The notes beneath the pieces were generated by a model, which saw only the letters and a list, made by a program, of their open reading frames with translations, was not told the origin of the DNA and ran no database searches. Below are positions 10,565 through 19,683 of a stretch of DNA of 45,336 bases, piece by piece. Each line of letters starts with the position of its first letter. The stretch's first letter is position 1. The position numbers were made by a program, and so were the translations under genes. Origin of the DNA: Eubacteriales bacterium (GTDB taxonomy: Bacteria; Bacillota; Clostridia; Saccharofermentanales; DTU023); NCBI GenBank assembly GCA_030537595.1, contig JAUNVR010000005.1:1-45336 (forward strand). Direction: 5' to 3'.

Positions 10565-11581
10565 ATGGAAATTTTAGACTTGGCTTTGGCCGGGGAAGTT
10601 AATCGCGATTCAAAGGGCTCTGTCTTAATTAATGAAATGCCCGAGATTCGTGTCGGCAAGCGCAATCCTTATATGGTCGGTCATTTTATCAACCAGGGCT
10701 GTAGCGCAGAATTCAAGATTTGGGAAGAAAGAACTTATAAGACTGTCCTCGACAATGGGCCCGGGATTTACGATGTTGAAGTTACCGGCAGTGAGTACAA
10801 TGGCTACTACCTAACGGTGAGAAGGATTCAACCTTGTACTGATCCCAGCCTCGAGCGCAGTGATTTTTTGCCAAGCATTCCGGTCAAACAATTAAATGCG
10901 ATGTGGAAGCTGGCATTTCGTGAGCTCAGAAAACTTGGCTTATCTGAAGAGGCGATTGGCCTAGCGCGGGAGATTGTCAATGATCCTGAGTTAGAAGGTC
11001 GCTACTCTCGGGAAGGGGCGGCGAGCTTCCACCACGACAATCGCATTGGTGGCTTGGCACACCACAGCGCGAAGATGCTGCGTATTTTAGCCGCTGTGAT
11101 TGGCAATTTGCCGCCCTTGAGAAAGAGCATAGACCTACTCTTTTTAGGCGTGGTCTTACATGATATCGGCAAGGTTTTCGAGTATAAGGATTTAGCCATC
11201 TCTGAGTTCTGGTTTTCGAATCACCGGGCCCGGGGAATTGAGTTCCTGGCCAAATATAAGGAGCGCATCTGTAAGCTCTACGATGAGAAGTTCTACCGCC
11301 ATCTCCAGGCCATAATTATCGGACATCACGGTGATTATGGAGACCGCCCGACCACCGTCGCAACCGGGATCATCCACTATATTGATACGCTAGAAAGCCA
11401 GGCCACAGGTCTGGTCGAAAGGCAGATTGAAGGGCGAGAAAATGAGAATATCCGCGTGCCCGACTGGGGTTACCTGGCGCCCGTCGATTTAGCTGGTGAG
11501 CTCTACTCCACTGAGGCAGCCCTATTGGCTGACGAGGAGAGTGAGGAGCGAGCGGAAACCTTAGAAAATGCAGGTCAATAA
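10565..11581 (+). CDS. yhaM: OB-fold/HD-domain 3'-5' exoribonuclease, YhaM-like
   Basis: At 338 residues it shows the YhaM layout: an N-terminal OB-fold-like nucleic-acid-binding part (about 15-90) and an HD phosphohydrolase domain (about 145-300). Metal-ligand candidates are H156-H157, H166-H167 in GGLAHHSAKML, the H199-D200 pair in VVLHDIGKVFEY, and GHHGDYG further on. YhaM enzymes trim RNA 3' ends and are sugar-nonspecific in some species. The ATG at 10565 has only a weak ribosome-binding site (GATGCAAG). The last 14 bases overlap the start of tcdA, so the two are probably coupled. The C-terminal tail is acidic (DEESEERAETLE). Confidence 0.85.
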   Translation: MEILDLALAGEVNRDSKGSVLINEMPEIRVGKRNPYMVGHFINQGCSAEFKIWEERTYKTVLDNGPGIYDVEVTGSEYNGYYLTVRRIQPCTDPSLERSDFLPSIPVKQLNAMWKLAFRELRKLGLSEEAIGLAREIVNDPELEGRYSREGAASFHHDNRIGGLAHHSAKMLRILAAVIGNLPPLRKSIDLLFLGVVLHDIGKVFEYKDLAISEFWFSNHRARGIEFLAKYKERICKLYDEKFYRHLQAIIIGHHGDYGDRPTTVATGIIHYIDTLESQATGLVERQIEGRENENIRVPDWGYLAPVDLAGELYSTEAALLADEESEERAETLENAGQ

Positions 11582-12332
11582 AACTGTGACCGAAATAATA
11601 AAGCCTGAAAGTGAAGCAGTAGAAATTACAGCCGCCTGTGCAGAAGACAGTGCGGCGAGAACGCGTTTACTTTTTGGCGCAGAGGCCCTAGTTCAGCTCG
11701 ATCAGAGCAGGGTTTTAATTGCTGGTCTCGGTGGTGTTGGTGGAGCAGTGCTCGAGGCCTTGGCGCGGGCTGGGATTGGCCACTTATCTATAATTGATAG
11801 CGATAGCTTCGTCCCCTCGAATTTAAATCGTCAGATTCTATCGACGACTAAGACTATAGGACGGCCAAAGGTTGAAGCGGCCAGGGAGCGATTGAAATTA
11901 ATTAATCCCGCCCTGGAGCTTGAGGCGAGAGAACTGAGGCTGAGCCCGGAAAATATCCGGCCAATTCTGGCGGAAAAAGAATATGATTTAGTGATCGACT
12001 GCATCGATGATTTAAGGGCAAAGGCGGCCCTAGTTAAAACTGCTTTAGACTTAGGGATTGAAGTTTTAGTGGCCGGAGGAGCTGGCAATCGGATCCGACC
12101 TGAGGGTCTGCGGGTCGATTATTTAGAAAATGCCTTTAATGATCCTCTATTAAAGGTCTTACGCCGCAATTTAAAAGATTATCCGAGAGAGAAAATACGT
12201 ACAGTCTTTAGTCCACATCCCCCAATAAAAACGAAGTCGAGGACAATTGCCTCATCGCCCTATCTACCCAATATCTTGGGTTTCACCCTAGCTGGTCTGG
12301 CGATTGAAGTGATTTTAGGACTTATCGATTAA
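11568..12332 (+). CDS. tcdA: tRNA threonylcarbamoyladenosine dehydratase (E1-like)
   Basis: TcdA is an ATP-dependent E1/ThiF-fold enzyme that dehydrates and cyclises t6A at tRNA position 37 to ct6A. The 254 residues show RLLFGAEAL near residue 33, the nucleotide-binding GLGGVG at 53-58, NLNRQI in the adenylation region, DCIDDLRAKAALV, and VAGGAGNRIRP. The late block (LRRNLKD, FSPHPP, LGFTLAGLA) matches TcdA/YgdL rather than MoeB or ThiF. The start overlaps the upstream gene by 14 bases. A strong terminator follows 4 bases after the stop. Confidence 0.88.
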   Translation: MQVNKTVTEIIKPESEAVEITAACAEDSAARTRLLFGAEALVQLDQSRVLIAGLGGVGGAVLEALARAGIGHLSIIDSDSFVPSNLNRQILSTTKTIGRPKVEAARERLKLINPALELEARELRLSPENIRPILAEKEYDLVIDCIDDLRAKAALVKTALDLGIEVLVAGGAGNRIRPEGLRVDYLENAFNDPLLKVLRRNLKDYPREKIRTVFSPHPPIKTKSRTIASSPYLPNILGFTLAGLAIEVILGLID

Positions 12333-12335
12333 AAG

Positions 12336-12371
12336 AAAAAACCCTGTAGGCAAGAGCCGACAGGGTTTTTT
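12336..12371. terminator. Bidirectional intrinsic terminator
   Basis: AAAAAACCCTGT (12336-12347) pairs perfectly with ACAGGGTTTTTT (12360-12371), with a small GGC/GCC inner stem in the loop. It has T-runs on both strands and separates the convergent tcdA and pntB genes. Confidence 0.93.
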
Positions 12372-12401
12372 GATAACTTAGTTTAAGGTCTAAGTTAGTT
12401 T

Positions 12402-15400
12402 TTAATCGTTAAGCCCCTTGAGTAAGCTTCTGAGCGTTTCCTTAGCGTCGCCGAGGAGGAGGTAGACCTTTGCACCGGGCTGGTCAGCTTCGCTGTAGAG
12501 GGGGTTTTCGACTCCGGCGTAGCCTGGCTGGCGATCGAAGTTACAGATGATGATCTGCTTAGAATCTGTGACTGAAAGTACCGGCATACCATAAATTGGG
12601 GTACCCTCAGCTGTATTGGCAGCAGGGTTAATTACGTCGTTTGCCCCGATGATAATTGTGACGTCAGTATCCTTGAAACTATCGTTGATACTTTCCATCT
12701 CATGGAGTTTTTCATAGGGGACGTCAACTTCTGCAAGCAGGACGTTCATATGCCCCGGCATTCTGCCGGCAACCGGATGAATTGCAAAGTCAACTGTCTT
12801 GCCTCTGTCCTCCAGTTCATCCATCAATTGTTTGACAATGGGTTGAGCCTGGGAGAGGGCCATACCATAACCTGGGACGATGATGACCCGCTCAGCCGCC
12901 TTCAAGCAGTCCGCGGGATTAGCTGAGCTTTTAGCTTCACTTCTCGCTTCAGAAGCTTCAGGCTGACTGTCTGCGTTCCGATACTGTTCTCTGAGTTCTT
13001 TTAAGCTGTCCTTAGCATCGCCGAGGATCAGTGCGACATGGTCGCCACCAGCTTTAGCCTCGCTATATAAGGGGTTAGGTACACCGGCGTAGCCCGGCTG
13101 CTCGTCAAAGTTACAGATGATGACGTGCTTGGCATTCTCAACTGAGAGCACTGGCATACCGTAGATCGGCGTTCCTTCTGCGGTGTTGGCAGCAGGGTTT
13201 ACAACGTCATTTGCACCGATAATTAAGGCGACGTCAGTCGAGGCAAATTCCCCATCGATCTCTGACATTTCGTGGAGCTTCTCGTAGGGTACGTCGACTT
13301 CCGCGAGTAGGACATTCATGTGCCCCGGCATTCTTCCGGCAACCGGGTGAATTGCAAAGTCGACTTTTTTACCAGCATCTTCGAGCTCGTCCATAAGTTG
13401 CTTAACCATGGGCTGGGCTTGGGATAAGGCCATGCCGTAACCCGGCACGATAATTACGCGCTCGGCGGATTTTAGCCAGGAGCCAGGATTGCTCTGTTTC
13501 TCGCTAGCTTGGGGACTAGCTTGCTGTGGGACCAAGGCGGCGCTGCGGTACTGCTTTTGTAGTTCTTTTAGACTGTCCTTTGCATCGCCTAAAACCAAGG
13601 CGACATGGTCGCCGCCGTCTTTAGCCTCAGTATATAAGGGGTTGGGTACACCGGCGTAGCCCGGCTGCTCGTCAAAGTTACAGATGATGACGTGCTTGGC
13701 ATTCTCAACTGAGAGCACTGGCATACCGTAGATCGGCGTTCCTTCTGCGGTGTTGGCAGCAGGGTTTACAACGTCATTTGCACCGATAATTAAGGCGACG
13801 TCAGTTGAGGCGAATTCCCCATCGATCTCTGACATTTCGTGGAGCTTCTCGTAGGGTACGTCAACTTCTGCGAGTAAGACATTCATGTGCCCTGGCATTC
13901 TTCCGGCGACCGGGTGAATGGCAAAGTCGACCTTTTTCCCGTCGCTTTCGAGCTCGTCCATTAATTGCTTAACAATGGGTTGAGCCTGCGATAAAGCCAT
14001 ACCATAACCCGGGACAATAATTACGCGCTCAGCATCCTTTAACCACTTTCCTGGTAGGTCGACACAGGGCTCTGTGGATTCTGAAACTGCGCTGCTTTGT
14101 CCGGCATTGCGGTACTGCTTTTGCAGCTCTTTTAGAGTTTCTTTCGCATCACCTAGGAGCAGTTGGACATGGTCCTCGCTGGCCTTGGCTTCAGCATATA
14201 GTGGGTTCGCGACTCCGGCGTAGCCTGGCTGCTCGTCGAAGTTACAGATAATGACGTGCTTGGCATTCTCGACTGAGAGCACGGGCATGCCGTAGATTGG
14301 AGTACCTTCTGCGGTATTTGCAGCCGGGTTTACTACGTCATTTGCACCAATGATTAAGGCGACATCAGTTGTCGCGAATTCGTCATTAATTGCATCCATC
14401 TCGAAAAGCTTCTCATAGGGCACATCAACTTCTGCGAGTAGGACATTCATGTGACCCGGCATTCTTCCGGCGACCGGGTGAATGGCAAAGTCGACCTTTT
14501 TCCCGTCGCTTTCGAGCTCGTCCATTAATTGCTTAACAATGGGTTGAGCCTGTGATAAGGCCATACCATAACCCGGGACAATAATTACGCGCTCGGCATC
14601 CTTTAACCAATCGCCAGGTGTAGCCTTAGCGCGAGCTGCCGGCTCAGCGGCTTGGGGAGCAGCCTGGCTAGGAGCCTGGGCTGGAGCGCTAGCGGGACTT
14701 GAGCTTTTGGCCGCTGCCTTAGGCTGGGCCGGGGCGGAAGTCTTGCCGAGTAGGATGTCCATCAGGTGACGATTCATTGAGCGGCACATAATCTGGGTCA
14801 AAAGCAGTCCCGAAGCACCGACAATACCGCCAACTGCTACTAGCAGGAGGTCACCAATTGCCATACCTGCAATCGCTCCAGCGACACCGGAGAAGGAGTT
14901 TAGAAGTGAGATGGTAATCGGCATATCTGCGCCGCCGACGCGGATGGCAAAGATGTAACCAAAGAGGTTACTCATCACTACCGCAAAGATGATTAGAATA
15001 ATTTTTGCCGCTCCAGATTCAAAGCTCGGGAGGAGGAAGGCAAAGACCGAGAGGGCCGAGAGGATTAGGCTCAGACTGGTCCACAGTTGGTGGCGCTTCC
15101 AGACGATGGGGCGCTGGTTCATCAGGCGGTGCAGCTTAGCTGCGGCAACTGCTGAACCTGACCAGGTCAGACCACCGACCATAATCGCCAGACCGGCGGT
15201 AAAGGTCGAGAAGGCATTGAGCTCACCACGCTGGACGGTCAAAGTTAAAATACCGGCGAGCATTGAGGCGAGACCACCAAAGCCGTTTAAGAGTCCGACC
15301 ATCTGGGGCATCTGAATCATTGCGACCTTACGCGAGAGATAGAGGCCACAGACTGTACCGATCAACATGCCAATCCAGAGTTCGTAAACTGTGAAAATCC

Positions 15401-15608
15401 CGAAGTACCAGAGGGTTAAGAGGATAGCTGCGAGCATTGAGCCTGCTCCGAGCAGATTTCCGCTGGCTGCTTTTTCGACCTTTGACATTCTCGAAATGCC
15501 AAGCAAGACGAGTAGCGAAAGAATCGCCGAGATAATGTAGTAAATAATCTGGGTTGAGCCTCCGGAGACTGGCTCAACAAGTAGGAATTGAGGTAAGAAA
15601 TTAAACAT
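12402..15608 (-). CDS. pntB: NAD(P) transhydrogenase beta subunit with four tandem domain III copies
   Basis: PntB forms most of the membrane proton channel (domain II) and the NADP(H)-binding domain III of the proton-translocating transhydrogenase. Typical PntB is about 460 residues with one domain III; this one is 1068. Residues 1-287 are a normal domain II with about nine hydrophobic helices. An Ala/Pro/Ser linker (288-331) follows. Four complete domain III units then occur at about 332-500, 520-689, 709-877 and 899-1064, joined by 19-21-residue Ser/Ala/Glu linkers. Each unit keeps VPGYGMALSQAQP, HPVAGRMPGHMNVLLAE, IIGANDV(V/I)NPAA, PGYAGVxNPLY and LLGDAK-type ends, so all four look able to bind NADP(H). 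Its ATG overlaps the pntA2 stop by one base (TAATG), behind AGGAGG. Confidence 0.95.
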   Translation of the reverse strand: MFNFLPQFLLVEPVSGGSTQIIYYIISAILSLLVLLGISRMSKVEKAASGNLLGAGSMLAAILLTLWYFGIFTVYELWIGMLIGTVCGLYLSRKVAMIQMPQMVGLLNGFGGLASMLAGILTLTVQRGELNAFSTFTAGLAIMVGGLTWSGSAVAAAKLHRLMNQRPIVWKRHQLWTSLSLILSALSVFAFLLPSFESGAAKIILIIFAVVMSNLFGYIFAIRVGGADMPITISLLNSFSGVAGAIAGMAIGDLLLVAVGGIVGASGLLLTQIMCRSMNRHLMDILLGKTSAPAQPKAAAKSSSPASAPAQAPSQAAPQAAEPAARAKATPGDWLKDAERVIIVPGYGMALSQAQPIVKQLMDELESDGKKVDFAIHPVAGRMPGHMNVLLAEVDVPYEKLFEMDAINDEFATTDVALIIGANDVVNPAANTAEGTPIYGMPVLSVENAKHVIICNFDEQPGYAGVANPLYAEAKASEDHVQLLLGDAKETLKELQKQYRNAGQSSAVSESTEPCVDLPGKWLKDAERVIIVPGYGMALSQAQPIVKQLMDELESDGKKVDFAIHPVAGRMPGHMNVLLAEVDVPYEKLHEMSEIDGEFASTDVALIIGANDVVNPAANTAEGTPIYGMPVLSVENAKHVIICNFDEQPGYAGVPNPLYTEAKDGGDHVALVLGDAKDSLKELQKQYRSAALVPQQASPQASEKQSNPGSWLKSAERVIIVPGYGMALSQAQPMVKQLMDELEDAGKKVDFAIHPVAGRMPGHMNVLLAEVDVPYEKLHEMSEIDGEFASTDVALIIGANDVVNPAANTAEGTPIYGMPVLSVENAKHVIICNFDEQPGYAGVPNPLYSEAKAGGDHVALILGDAKDSLKELREQYRNADSQPEASEARSEAKSSANPADCLKAAERVIIVPGYGMALSQAQPIVKQLMDELEDRGKTVDFAIHPVAGRMPGHMNVLLAEVDVPYEKLHEMESINDSFKDTDVTIIIGANDVINPAANTAEGTPIYGMPVLSVTDSKQIIICNFDRQPGYAGVENPLYSEADQPGAKVYLLLGDAKETLRSLLKGLND
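12417..12914 (-). repeat. pntB domain III, copy 4 (most divergent)
   Basis: Residues about 899-1064 of PntB. It differs most from the others: DCLKAAERV at its start, HEMESINDSFKDTDVTI, SVTDSKQIIICNFDRQ and YLLLGDAKETLRSLL at the end. NADP-site motifs are intact. Confidence 0.93.
12978..13484 (-). repeat. pntB domain III, copy 3
   Basis: Residues about 709-877 of PntB. Its central 100 residues are identical to those of copy 2, while its first part (QPMVKQ, EDAGKK) differs. Confidence 0.93.
13542..14051 (-). repeat. pntB domain III, copy 2
   Basis: Residues about 520-689 of PntB. It shares an exact 95-base block with copy 1 and an exact 161-base block (13645-13805) with copy 3 (13078-13238), which makes it a mosaic. 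Confidence 0.93.
14109..14615 (-). repeat. pntB domain III, copy 1
   Basis: Residues about 332-500 of PntB. It has FEMDAINDEFATTD where copies 2-3 have HEMSEIDGEFASTD. A 95-base block, 14458-14552, is identical to 13894-13988 in copy 2. Confidence 0.93.
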
Positions 15609-15907
15609 TATTTTCTACCTCCTTTTTTGTCCGACTTAAACATCCGCAGCATGCGATCTGTGACGCCAAAACCGCCAACTACGTTGAGGGTGGCGAGAAT
15701 AATTGCAATCATGCCGAGGATTTTTGAGCCGAAGTGAGTGGCTGCTGCGGTGGCTGAGAGACAGCCGAGCAGGGTAACGCCAGAAAAGGCGTTCATACCA
15801 CTCATCAGCGGGGTGTGAAGCAGACTGGGAACCTTAGTGATAATGCGGTAACCAATCACAGTTGCGGCGAGGAATACAACGAGAAGTAAACCTTGCGTAA
15901 GTGTCAT
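15608..15907 (-). CDS. pntA2: NAD(P) transhydrogenase alpha subunit 2 (membrane part)
   Basis: This 99-residue protein has three hydrophobic helices and supplies the alpha-subunit contribution to the membrane domain. Splitting alpha into a soluble PntAA and a small membrane PntAB is known from Rhodospirillum and others. Recognisable family text is LHTPLMSGMNAFSG and LGMIAIILATLNVVGGFGVTD. The ATG at 15907 is chosen because GAGGAGG lies 6 bases upstream; an in-frame ATG five codons earlier would overlap that site. The stop shares one base with the pntB start. It lies between pntA1 and pntB in one operon. Confidence 0.93.
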   Translation of the reverse strand: MTLTQGLLLVVFLAATVIGYRIITKVPSLLHTPLMSGMNAFSGVTLLGCLSATAAATHFGSKILGMIAIILATLNVVGGFGVTDRMLRMFKSDKKGGRK

Positions 15908-15994
15908 AGATAACCTCCTCAAAGCGGAAAACGGAGGGCCGGCAAAACCGGGCCTCCGCTCCGTACTTTAGTCTTTAAATCAGATCGGGCAAGG

Positions 15995-17152
15995 CTATAG
16001 TCCCATAGCCTTACGGGCACCCTTGTGCACAACTTCACCGTTATAGGTGGTCAGTGACTTGTCGATGATTTCATCTTCGAGGTCGAGGACGATTTTTCCG
16101 TCTTTAACCAGATAGTTGACGAAGTTGGCGACGTTTTGGGCAAACATCCAGGTTGCACTGGTCGGCAAGAGGCCTGGGATGTTCTTAATCCCAACGAGTG
16201 TGATATTGTGTTTTACTTCGACTGTACCCGCTGGGGTCAGGGCGCAGTTACCACCCTGGTCGATAGAAATATCTACGATGACGGAGCCCGGTTTCATGGA
16301 CTTAACCATTTCCTCTGTTAAGAGTACTGGGGCCTGTTCGCCTGGAACTAAGGCTGAGCAGAAAATAATGTCCATTTCAGGAACGTGCTCAGCGAGGACC
16401 TTGCGCTCTTTCTCGAGGAGCTCAGGGGTCAGTTGCAGGGCATATCCGCCGTCACCGACTGCGGCTTCTTTCGGGATACCGAGGTCGATAATCTTTGCAC
16501 CGAGTGAGCCAGCTTGCTCAGCGGCATCGGGGCGAATATCTGCGGCGTGCACGACTGCTCCCAAACGTTTTGCGGTAGCGATGGCCTGGAGACCACCGAC
16601 TCCGGAACCGATGACCAGGACATTGACTGGTTTAATCATTCCGACAGCAGTAAAGATCTGGGGCATGAAGCGCGGCAGATAGTTACCGGCCAGCATAATT
16701 CCCTTATAACCAGCACAAGTTGACATCGAGGTCAAAGCATCTAGATTCTGAGCTCTGGAAATCCGAGGTACACCGTCGAGGGTCAAAGAGATGACGCCTT
16801 GCTTGGCGAGCATTTTGACCATTTCGTGATTGACAGGGGCGGCCGGGTGGATAAAGGTGATAAGGTATTGCCCTTCACGCATCATCTCGACCTCGTGCTT
16901 ACCCTTAGCTTCATTGAACAGGGGTTCTTTGACCTTTAAAATCAGGTCTGACTTTGCGAATAATTCGGCACAATCATCAATGATTTTCGCACCGGCTTCG
17001 ACATACTGTTCATCGTGATAGAAGGAACCTTCGCCTGCACCCTTCTCGATCAGGACTTCTAATCCTTTATCGACCATCTGTTTTACAGTATCGGGAGAGG
17101 CTGCTACACGTGCCTCAGAAGGCATGATTTCTTTAGGAACTCCAATGACCAT
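15995..17152 (-). CDS. pntA1: NAD(P) transhydrogenase alpha subunit 1 (NAD-binding domain I)
   Basis: This is the soluble NAD(H)-binding domain I, which exchanges hydride with domain III. The 385-residue product begins MVIGVPKEI with the alanine dehydrogenase/PNT N-terminal fold (1-135), then a Rossmann domain with VLVIGSGVGGLQAIATAKRLG and HAADIRPDAAEQ. The C-terminal membrane helices are absent, as expected when PntA2 is separate. The ATG at 17152 is preferred over an in-frame one at 17260 because GGAGGTGA lies just upstream and the promoter at 17189-17217 lies inside the longer frame. With pntA2 and pntB it makes a complete proton-motive-force-linked NADPH/NADH exchanger. Confidence 0.95.
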   Translation of the reverse strand: MVIGVPKEIMPSEARVAASPDTVKQMVDKGLEVLIEKGAGEGSFYHDEQYVEAGAKIIDDCAELFAKSDLILKVKEPLFNEAKGKHEVEMMREGQYLITFIHPAAPVNHEMVKMLAKQGVISLTLDGVPRISRAQNLDALTSMSTCAGYKGIMLAGNYLPRFMPQIFTAVGMIKPVNVLVIGSGVGGLQAIATAKRLGAVVHAADIRPDAAEQAGSLGAKIIDLGIPKEAAVGDGGYALQLTPELLEKERKVLAEHVPEMDIIFCSALVPGEQAPVLLTEEMVKSMKPGSVIVDISIDQGGNCALTPAGTVEVKHNITLVGIKNIPGLLPTSATWMFAQNVANFVNYLVKDGKIVLDLEDEIIDKSLTTYNGEVVHKGARKAMGL

Positions 17153-17188: not shown

Positions 17189-17217
17189 ATTGTAACAAAA
17201 AAGGCCATACTTGTGAA
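17189..17217 (-). promoter_or_regulatory. Promoter of the pntA1-pntA2-pntB operon
   Basis: On the minus strand -35 TTCACA (17217-17212), a 17-base spacer and -10 TACAAT (17194-17189). The expected start near 17182 gives a leader of about 30 bases. The rest of the 17153-17432 gap must hold the divergent oxidoreductase promoter, which I could not assign. Confidence 0.7.
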
Positions 17218-18612: not shown

Positions 18613-19683
18613 CTAGTTACCAAAGTTCATAACCACGTACTCACGGTTATCTGTTGGGTCGTAGTAGAGGGCGATGCCGACTCTAGTGTAGGCTGCGCTG
18701 ACCATGGTGCTGTAGTGGGCAGGGGAGTTGATGAAGGCCGTGAAGATCTGCTCGGGGGTCTTTGTTCCGGTGGTGAAAAAGCCGGTATTTTCGGCCAGTC
18801 CAGAATTCGCCCCGTAGACTGAGGCAATCCAGGTGAGCGCAAAGACTCCGCCGTGTGTGTGGCCGGTTGAGTCACCAGTTGCGCGATAGGAGACACCAAC
18901 TTCAGGTGCGCGCACGAGGGCGATTTCCTGCATCACGGCATCATTGACTAGCTGGTGGATGCCCAAGGAGGCTCGGTGCTGGTTCAAAAGGTTGATGATA
19001 GTCATCGCCCCAGCGTAGGTGTCGTGAATGCCGGCTGAGCCCTGGGCTGCAACAGTTCCACTTGATTGATTAGCTTGGTTTTGCTGGGCAATCACGGAAG
19101 CAGCGGCCTGCTGTTGGGCTGCATAGGCGGCGGCAGCTTGGGCTTGGGCAGCAGCAGCGGCCTGTGCCTCGAGTTCGGCTGCGTAAGCTTCGTCATCGGC
19201 TTTGAGACGGGCTCTTTGAATTTCGCTGGACTTAAGCTGCTCGCTCAATTGGAATTTCGCAAATGAGGATAATTTCTGGACTAAGGGGTCCTGATTACCG
19301 ACAATCATGGCAGTTCCAGGCTCAGAGCTGAGGTCGAGTCCAGTGCTGGGATCCTTATCTCCAACCTGGGCCTCAATTAATTGCTCAGGGGCTGTTTCAG
19401 ACTCCTGCTCTTCTGCACTTAGCTCCTCTTCGAGAGCTTCACTTGCGTCGGAATCTTCTTCAGATTCGCTTGCAATTTCCTGATCTGTGGCCGCTTCAGG
19501 GGCTGCGCTGCTTTCAGCAGGTTTGAGCTCAAAGTCCTCGGAATTATCGTCCTTTTGGCCGCAGGCAATTAGCGAGAGGCTAAACATTAGACAAAGCAGA
19601 ATTGCGGTCAATTTTTGGCCGTTAAATCTGGATTTACTAGGATTATTTTTTTGACTATTAAAAGCTCTGTTCTGGTAAGACAT
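18613..19683 (-). CDS. CAP/SCP-domain lipoprotein
   Basis: At 356 residues it has a lipoprotein signal with lipobox LIAC (C41), so it should be anchored on the outer face of the membrane. A long acidic Glu/Asp/Ser segment (about 45-112) follows. Next comes an Ala/Gln-rich helical stretch (about 150-205), and then a C-terminal CAP domain (about 225-356) with INLLNQHRASLGI, HTHGGVFALTW, ENTGFF, FINSPAHYSTMVSAAYTRVG and a final YVVMNFGN. Bacterial CAP proteins are common in Gram-positive envelopes; most have no defined activity. AAAGGAG lies 7 bases before the ATG, and an extended -10 (TGGTAATAT on the minus strand, around 19707-19715) may be its promoter. Confidence 0.88.
   Translation of the reverse strand: MSYQNRAFNSQKNNPSKSRFNGQKLTAILLCLMFSLSLIACGQKDDNSEDFELKPAESSAAPEAATDQEIASESEEDSDASEALEEELSAEEQESETAPEQLIEAQVGDKDPSTGLDLSSEPGTAMIVGNQDPLVQKLSSFAKFQLSEQLKSSEIQRARLKADDEAYAAELEAQAAAAAQAQAAAAYAAQQQAAASVIAQQNQANQSSGTVAAQGSAGIHDTYAGAMTIINLLNQHRASLGIHQLVNDAVMQEIALVRAPEVGVSYRATGDSTGHTHGGVFALTWIASVYGANSGLAENTGFFTTGTKTPEQIFTAFINSPAHYSTMVSAAYTRVGIALYYDPTDNREYVVMNFGN

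Follow-up and report, generated by a model that had tools for sequence, protein, structure and literature searches.

The PntAB/NNT transhydrogenase (PF02233, PF12769 and PF05222/PF01262; three-subunit form in Thermus thermophilus and Rhodospirillum rubrum) is, in its textbook description, a two-site hydride/proton machine with one domain III (dIII) per protomer. In the ordinary enzyme, the orientation of dIII alternates, and the linker between domain II and dIII usually spans 14-19 aa (PMC5742237). Residues K424, R425 and S426 of PntB, the KRS motif, sit in the NADPH site, within loops D and E, which determine the specificity for NADP(H) over NAD(H) (PMC9529548). Domain I is homologous to L-alanine dehydrogenase (AlaDH; TIGR00518; family of the Mycobacterium tuberculosis protein 2VHW), which differs from the domain I subunit PntA1 in being soluble and in having neither an RQD loop nor a membrane or dIII partner. 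Changing R15, K75, H96 or D270 abolishes AlaDH activity (PMC10401832), and the M. tuberculosis enzyme cannot do without His96 and Asp270 (PMC4691113). Here, we analyzed a pntA1-pntA2-pntB-like operon within a 45,336-nt stretch of DNA from an Eubacteriales bacterium (GCA_030537595.1, contig JAUNVR010000005.1, positions 1 to 45,336 of the forward strand; the whole stretch is hereafter called the window), in which the pntB-like gene encodes domain II followed by four tandem dIIIs.

All three transhydrogenase subunits and domains have homologues in the window, in the expected operon order, and the likeness to PntAB/NNT extends to the domain I/II/III anatomy, the domain I features for NAD binding (NAD site) and dIII contact (RQD loop), the fold and most motifs of dIII, and an Asp/Arg pair at the channel mouth. 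However, the window enzyme departs from a transhydrogenase in two defining sequence features, namely the KRS motif and the single dIII. It belongs to a clade, here termed N-type, whose members differ from PntAB/NNT in that the number of dIIIs varies from one to four, N-x-D replaces KRS and domain I has the catalytic tetrad of AlaDH; the window enzyme differs further by a long Ala/Pro/Ser linker and by having neither known gating histidine. Our favored, though tentative, reading is that the clade is a deep-branching sister lineage of the transhydrogenases that would function as a membrane-bound, NAD(H)-linked dehydrogenase of the AlaDH type, with the tandem dIIIs acting as tethered hydride carriers. 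The membrane-associated part of the locus is organized as follows:

12402..15608, minus strand: pntB-like gene, 1068 aa, domain II and four tandem dIIIs; no internal stop; Pfam and NCBIfam matches
14742..15608, minus strand: domain II, membrane part, residues 1-289 of PntB (alignment and AlphaFold)
14613..14741, minus strand: linker from domain II to dIII copy 1, about 43 aa, rich in Ala/Pro/Ser (low AlphaFold confidence at 291-326)
14109..14612, minus strand: dIII copy 1, residues 333-500, defined by hidden Markov model (HMM); NFD codons 14235-14243
13545..14048, minus strand: dIII copy 2, residues 521-688, HMM-defined; NFD codons 13671-13679
12978..13481, minus strand: dIII copy 3, residues 710-877, HMM-defined; NFD codons 13104-13112
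12408..12911, minus strand: dIII copy 4, residues 900-1067, HMM-defined, the most divergent copy; NFD codons 12534-12542
15608..15922, minus strand: pntA2-like gene (domain II, alpha2 part; PF12769)

The Pfam PNTB model matched the pntB-like open reading frame in four stretches (1270.9 bits) and NCBIfam NF006974 matched the protein with 876.6 bits, while the DNA of the frame carried in-register repeats with spacings of 570/567/564. AlphaFold, run on a 21-sequence alignment, predicted the same dIII fold four times, joined by disordered linkers (predicted local distance difference test, pLDDT, below 50 at 291-326, 505-516, 693-704 and 882-895); its predicted template modelling score (pTM) was 0.37, so that the relative placement of the domains is not readable from the model. 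The top Foldseek matches of the predicted PntB were the transhydrogenase PntB/dIII entries 4o9u, 9l76 and 1pno. A first-pass annotation of this DNA had described four complete dIIIs, flexibly linked, behind domain II, an architecture that Pfam, HMM and AlphaFold confirmed, with the domain boundaries it gave lying within a few residues of the HMM-defined ones. It was also right that the expansion is confined to dIII: PntA1 and PntA2 are each single and adjacent to pntB, and a second pntB was not found in the genome of the window (G000; 1.55 Mb, 35 contigs, 96% complete). Separately, the dIII copies (window 12402-14612) weakly matched the Pfam TPP_enzyme_M and NAD-dependent deacylase models, probably because dIII is known to be structurally related to the middle domain of enzymes that use thiamine diphosphate.

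A comparable layout is known from the multi-lipoyl-domain E2 of 2-oxoacid dehydrogenases, in which tandem carrier domains on flexible Ala/Pro-rich linkers share active sites. The resemblance is one of analogy without homology, the carrier being, in the dIII array, a nucleotide-binding Rossmann domain anchored to the membrane.

The four window copies differ at 9-28% of bases, and their synonymous divergence (dS) ranges from 0.4 up to saturation. The proportion of synonymous differences (pS) was 0.30 for copies 2/3, and copy 4 was near or at saturation against copies 1-3, which indicates that copy 4 is old. The ratio of non-synonymous to synonymous substitution (dN/dS) was 0.03-0.08 for every computable pair; hence, every copy is constrained, and all four are under strong purifying selection, which places the array well outside what chance would produce. 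Identity among the copies is mosaic, with copies 1/2 nearly identical over the first 180 nt and copies 2/3 nearly identical thereafter, a pattern that would be the mark of gene conversion.

These data bear on the possibility that the array is an assembly artefact or a decaying tandem duplication in which only a single dIII is real or functional. Many contigs of metagenome-assembled genomes (MAGs) do break inside the array (e.g., L024, L027, L047 and L147), and a Merdimmobilis scaffold shows a 4962-N gap and a duplicated flank within it. However, the divergence between copies and the purifying selection on each of them make this explanation very improbable, as does the finding of 2, 3 and 4 copies in single-contig genomes (G793, G495 and G800, respectively) and of the same layout in many families. 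Since the longest exact stretch shared by window copies is 161 nt, short reads could in principle resolve the array, although further identical copies may be hidden. For the clade, an assembly artefact was ruled out by the single-contig genomes together with the divergence of the copies.

The first-pass annotation had further called the copies motif-intact. This was correct for GYGMA, HPVAGRMPGHMNVLLAE, GANDVxNPAA, PGYAGV and LGDAK, all intact in 4/4 copies, but not for KRS: aligned to PntB of E. coli and T. thermophilus, 4/4 copies read N-F-D at the position of this motif (E. coli PntB 424-426). Throughout the clade, N-[F/Y/L/M]-D was present in essentially every member, whereas KRS, KRG or KRT was found in every canonical enzyme checked. 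Among the aligned dIII copies, 184 were N-x-D vs. 18 K-R-x, and one protein carried N-S-S, the sole other non-K-R type seen. The positions that best separate the dIII of the clade from the canonical one include those in loops D (401, 404) and E (424-426, 439), with the values at 424 and 426 being 100% by construction, as the loop itself served to delimit the N-type group. The N-S-S protein (L138, genome G495) has three dIIIs, and its domain II ends in MNS, not MNR, so that the equivalent of Arg265 is lost; an NfnB/GltD-like gene (11128-12381) lies downstream.

Rossmann folds that prefer NAD(H) are usually recognized by an Asn-hydrophobic-Asp pattern whose acidic residue lies close to the ribose of the adenosine. 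Judged by this pattern, the N-type dIII would prefer NAD(H).

A further departure from the canonical enzyme was found in domain I, encoded by the first gene of the operon:

15995..17152, minus strand: pntA1-like gene (domain I), with RQD loop and NAD-ribose Asp205 kept, and AlaDH tetrad R15, K75, H102, D298
17108..17110, minus strand: PntA1 Arg15 codon (AlaDH Arg15)
16928..16930, minus strand: PntA1 Lys75 codon (AlaDH Lys75)
16847..16849, minus strand: PntA1 His102 codon (AlaDH His96)
16259..16261, minus strand: PntA1 Asp298 codon (AlaDH Asp270)

Residues R15, K75, H102 and D298 of the window PntA1 correspond to the catalytic R15, K75, H96 and D270 of AlaDH, and Q271, N300, M133 and S134 are likewise shared. 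Across the PntA1 proteins of the clade, conservation was complete, as in true AlaDH (R15 71/71, K75 92/92, H96 96/96, D270 98/98 and N300 98/98), and the surrounding motifs are alike (LKVKEP, TFIHPA and IDQGG in N-type PntA1 vs. LKVKEP, TFLHLA and IDQGG in AlaDH). This contrasted with canonical domain I, which has L/G/Q/R at 75, D at 96 (10/13) and mostly S/E/A/Q at 270; in E. coli, the 75/96/270 positions are occupied by N/W/Q. The two types coexist in G001, a genome of the same genus as the window, where a canonical KRG enzyme with a single dIII and no tetrad (domain I motifs IQKP/LDPF/VATGG) is found together with an N-type enzyme with the tetrad and three dIIIs.

By family model and tree, the window PntA1 nonetheless falls outside AlaDH: it scored 202.5 bits against the family model TIGR00518 (cut-off 391.85), shares 32% identity with AlaDH, and groups with PntA rather than with AlaDH in the tree. 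When the domain I tree was rooted on AlaDH, the canonical (99) and N-type (84) proteins formed sister groups, a topology most simply read as the retention of an ancestral active site. The NAD-ribose Asp is kept in 98/98 clade PntA1 proteins, and GxGxxG and the RQD loop are kept too, so domain I should bind NAD(H) and meet dIII; a switch of domain I to NADP was ruled out by the conserved ribose Asp. Stand-alone AlaDH was absent from 12/14 genomes, which is no more than a hint given the patchy distribution of that enzyme.

Together, the loop and the tetrad weigh against the view, also taken by the first-pass annotation, of a standard transhydrogenase whose dIII copies bind NADP(H) in the usual way. 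Such an enzyme would catalyze hydride transfer from NADH to NADP+ driven by the proton-motive force, with extra tethered dIIIs raising turnover or taking turns and with NADP(H) bound via the N-x-D loop. Homology, fold, the conservation of all dIII motifs other than KRS, a domain I intact at its NAD site and RQD loop, the Asp213/Arg265 pair kept in domain II and the absence of glucose-6-phosphate dehydrogenase (G6PDH) from G000 are all in keeping with it. Against this stand the near-invariant N-x-D, which puts an acidic residue in place of the KRS/KRG/KRT of the NADP(H) site and removes KRS from all four window copies, the retention in the partner domain I of an AlaDH tetrad that transhydrogenation does not need, and the canonical KRG enzyme that G001 has alongside its N-type one. 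Since both sites show NAD-type features, it is doubtful that the enzyme simply transfers hydride from NADH to NADP+, and we consider this explanation rather unlikely. Storage of NADP(H) and a raised turnover of NADPH, both proposed in the first-pass annotation, are doubtful as well, given the loss of KRS and the AlaDH-type domain I. Its suggestion that tethered units take turns is still plausible, with the difference that the cargo would be NAD(H) and not NADP(H).

Two NAD-type sites and a conserved membrane domain could also describe an enzyme without an organic substrate, in which NADH/NAD+ hydride exchange would let ions leak in a regulated manner or act as a gate that responds to redox state. 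As such exchange yields no net chemistry, it would be difficult to account for the strict conservation seen across Bacillota and Bacteroidota, and the invariant AlaDH tetrad would be left without a role; we regard this alternative as improbable.

The tetrad offers a way out of this absence of net chemistry, and the membrane-bound AlaDH-type dehydrogenase that we favor builds on it. In the proposed cycle, domain I with bound NAD(H) would oxidize an amino acid, or reduce a 2-oxoacid plus ammonia, by means of the R15/K75/H96/D270-type residues. A dIII carrying NAD(H) would then dock on domain I at the conserved RQD loop, where hydride would pass between both nicotinamides. Finally, dIII would swing to domain II and exchange its nucleotide there, a step that would be linked to ion movement in the manner of an ordinary transhydrogenase; the basis of this swinging step is the alternating orientation of dIII (PMC5742237). 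Coupled to the membrane potential, the net reaction would be amino acid + NAD+ <-> oxoacid + NH4+ + NADH; depending on its direction, it could conserve energy (reductive amination) or spend it (amino-acid oxidation). One to four dIIIs would act as parallel tethered carriers, so that several of them could serve a single domain I pair and a single channel while each is at its own point in the cycle.

Several observations weigh against this proposal. The Asp at loop E points to NAD(H) but is no proof of it, and G495, a single-contig genome, has N-S-S loops. R15, K75, H96 and D270 also contact NAD in AlaDH (PMC4691113), so the geometry of NAD binding alone might explain why the tetrad is kept. Nor do the two traits always occur together: L083 (Dehalococcoidia) combines an AlaDH-like domain I with a K-R-T dIII, and its enzyme is possibly an intermediate between the canonical and N-type lineages; the N-S-S loops of G495 likewise show that the traits can part. 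Some N-type genomes (G014, G633 and G006) showed neither G6PDH nor an above-cut-off NfnB/GltA match, so a role in NADPH supply may apply there. Further, although domain II keeps the equivalents of Asp213 and Arg265, both known gating histidines are absent from window 14742-15922: the equivalent of E. coli beta His91 is replaced by Asn in domain II, and PntA2 has Ser where T. thermophilus alpha2 has His42. Conserved titratable residues in domain II are few and sit at membrane-helix ends or outside the helices, so that the ion coupling of the N-type enzyme is uncertain.

The loss of the channel histidines was also considered as a sign specific to the clade and was ruled out, since the KRG-type enzymes of Bacillota lack them too; the placement of titratable residues at or beyond helix ends is likewise common to KRG-type enzymes. 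A large part of the transhydrogenase family must therefore move ions without the known channel histidines, if it moves ions at all.

The search for PntB homologues in related genomes that the first-pass annotation had proposed yielded multi-dIII relatives across Bacillota and Bacteroidota. The family of the window had matches in 30/38 genomes, with one to four dIIIs, and similar genes occur in both phyla, with 2-, 3- and 4-copy relatives in many families. Thus, the claim that no enzyme of this layout had been described held in that we found no published description, but the layout is not unique. The literature search, directed at multi-dIII PntB or NAD-specific dIII, found none, with most subscription papers lying outside it, so that absence is not proven.

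Counting complete proteins only, the N-x-D type comprised 54 single, 13 double, 20 triple and 5 quadruple proteins, and the N-S-S type one triple, whereas all 13 canonical K-R-x proteins were single and none multiple (Fisher p 0.002 for multi-copy in N-type vs. canonical, with few canonical controls, 13-15 sequences, and kinship not corrected for). A neighbouring family (f3) contained about 50 further canonical-like genes of single-dIII length, and the six read in sequence were KRG. Two dIII copies were also present in the complete Petrimonas genome AP018040.2. For the Merdimmobilis hominis scaffold (L137, G564:C3:31000-48500; L056), at least three dIIIs were read; with the gap inside the array and the duplicated flank mentioned above, the number may be larger. 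The very long M. hominis arrays suggested by this gap were dropped from consideration, as the scaffold duplicates its own flank and no number can be given.

In the domain II tree, the N-type proteins were consistent with one origin (98/99), and the single/multiple state changed at least 15 times, some of which may be MAG collapse. These changes, the near-identical strains that differ in number (two copies in Petrimonas, one in the L052 MAG) and the grouping of many copies by protein in the dIII tree, as expected under concerted evolution or repeated expansion, fit an array that grows and shrinks by recombination without benefit. Such neutrality, which is compatible with any reaction, nevertheless appears unlikely to us, since extra copies last to synonymous saturation at low dN/dS and are found in the N-type clade only.

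With regard to the surroundings of the operon, the stop of the pntA2-like gene overlaps the pntB ATG, and a ribosome-binding site (GGAGGTGA) with the pntA1 ATG at 17152 lies downstream of a candidate promoter:

17189..17217, minus strand: candidate operon promoter TTCACA-17-TACAAT, extended -10 (basis: consensus match only)

A lipoprotein-like CAP-domain protein (PF00188) with a long Ala/Gln/Glu-rich low-complexity stretch is encoded at window 18613-19683. No recurrent partner gene was found near N-type pnt operons, except within Bacteroidales, where the operon lies about 0.5-1 kb upstream of cytochrome bd-like genes, named by eye from sequence (L037, L043, L044, L050, L052, L055 and L094).

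A broader extension of the favored reading, more doubtful than the reading itself, is that an ion-translocating, NAD-linked amino-acid (alanine-type) dehydrogenase, in which one to four NAD(H)-binding domains on tethers carry the hydride, would represent the ancestral state of the NADPH-making transhydrogenases. These would then have arisen by losing the substrate site of domain I and gaining the KRS loop in dIII.

The large, overlooked clade with repeated dIIIs provides a natural copy-number series for testing the swing of dIII between domains I and II. Family models name N-type proteins NAD(P) transhydrogenase, and metabolic models that credit them with NADPH may be wrong. Should the altered loop and the tetrad have the meaning proposed here, fermenting anaerobes would have an undescribed site linking amino-acid redox to the membrane potential.

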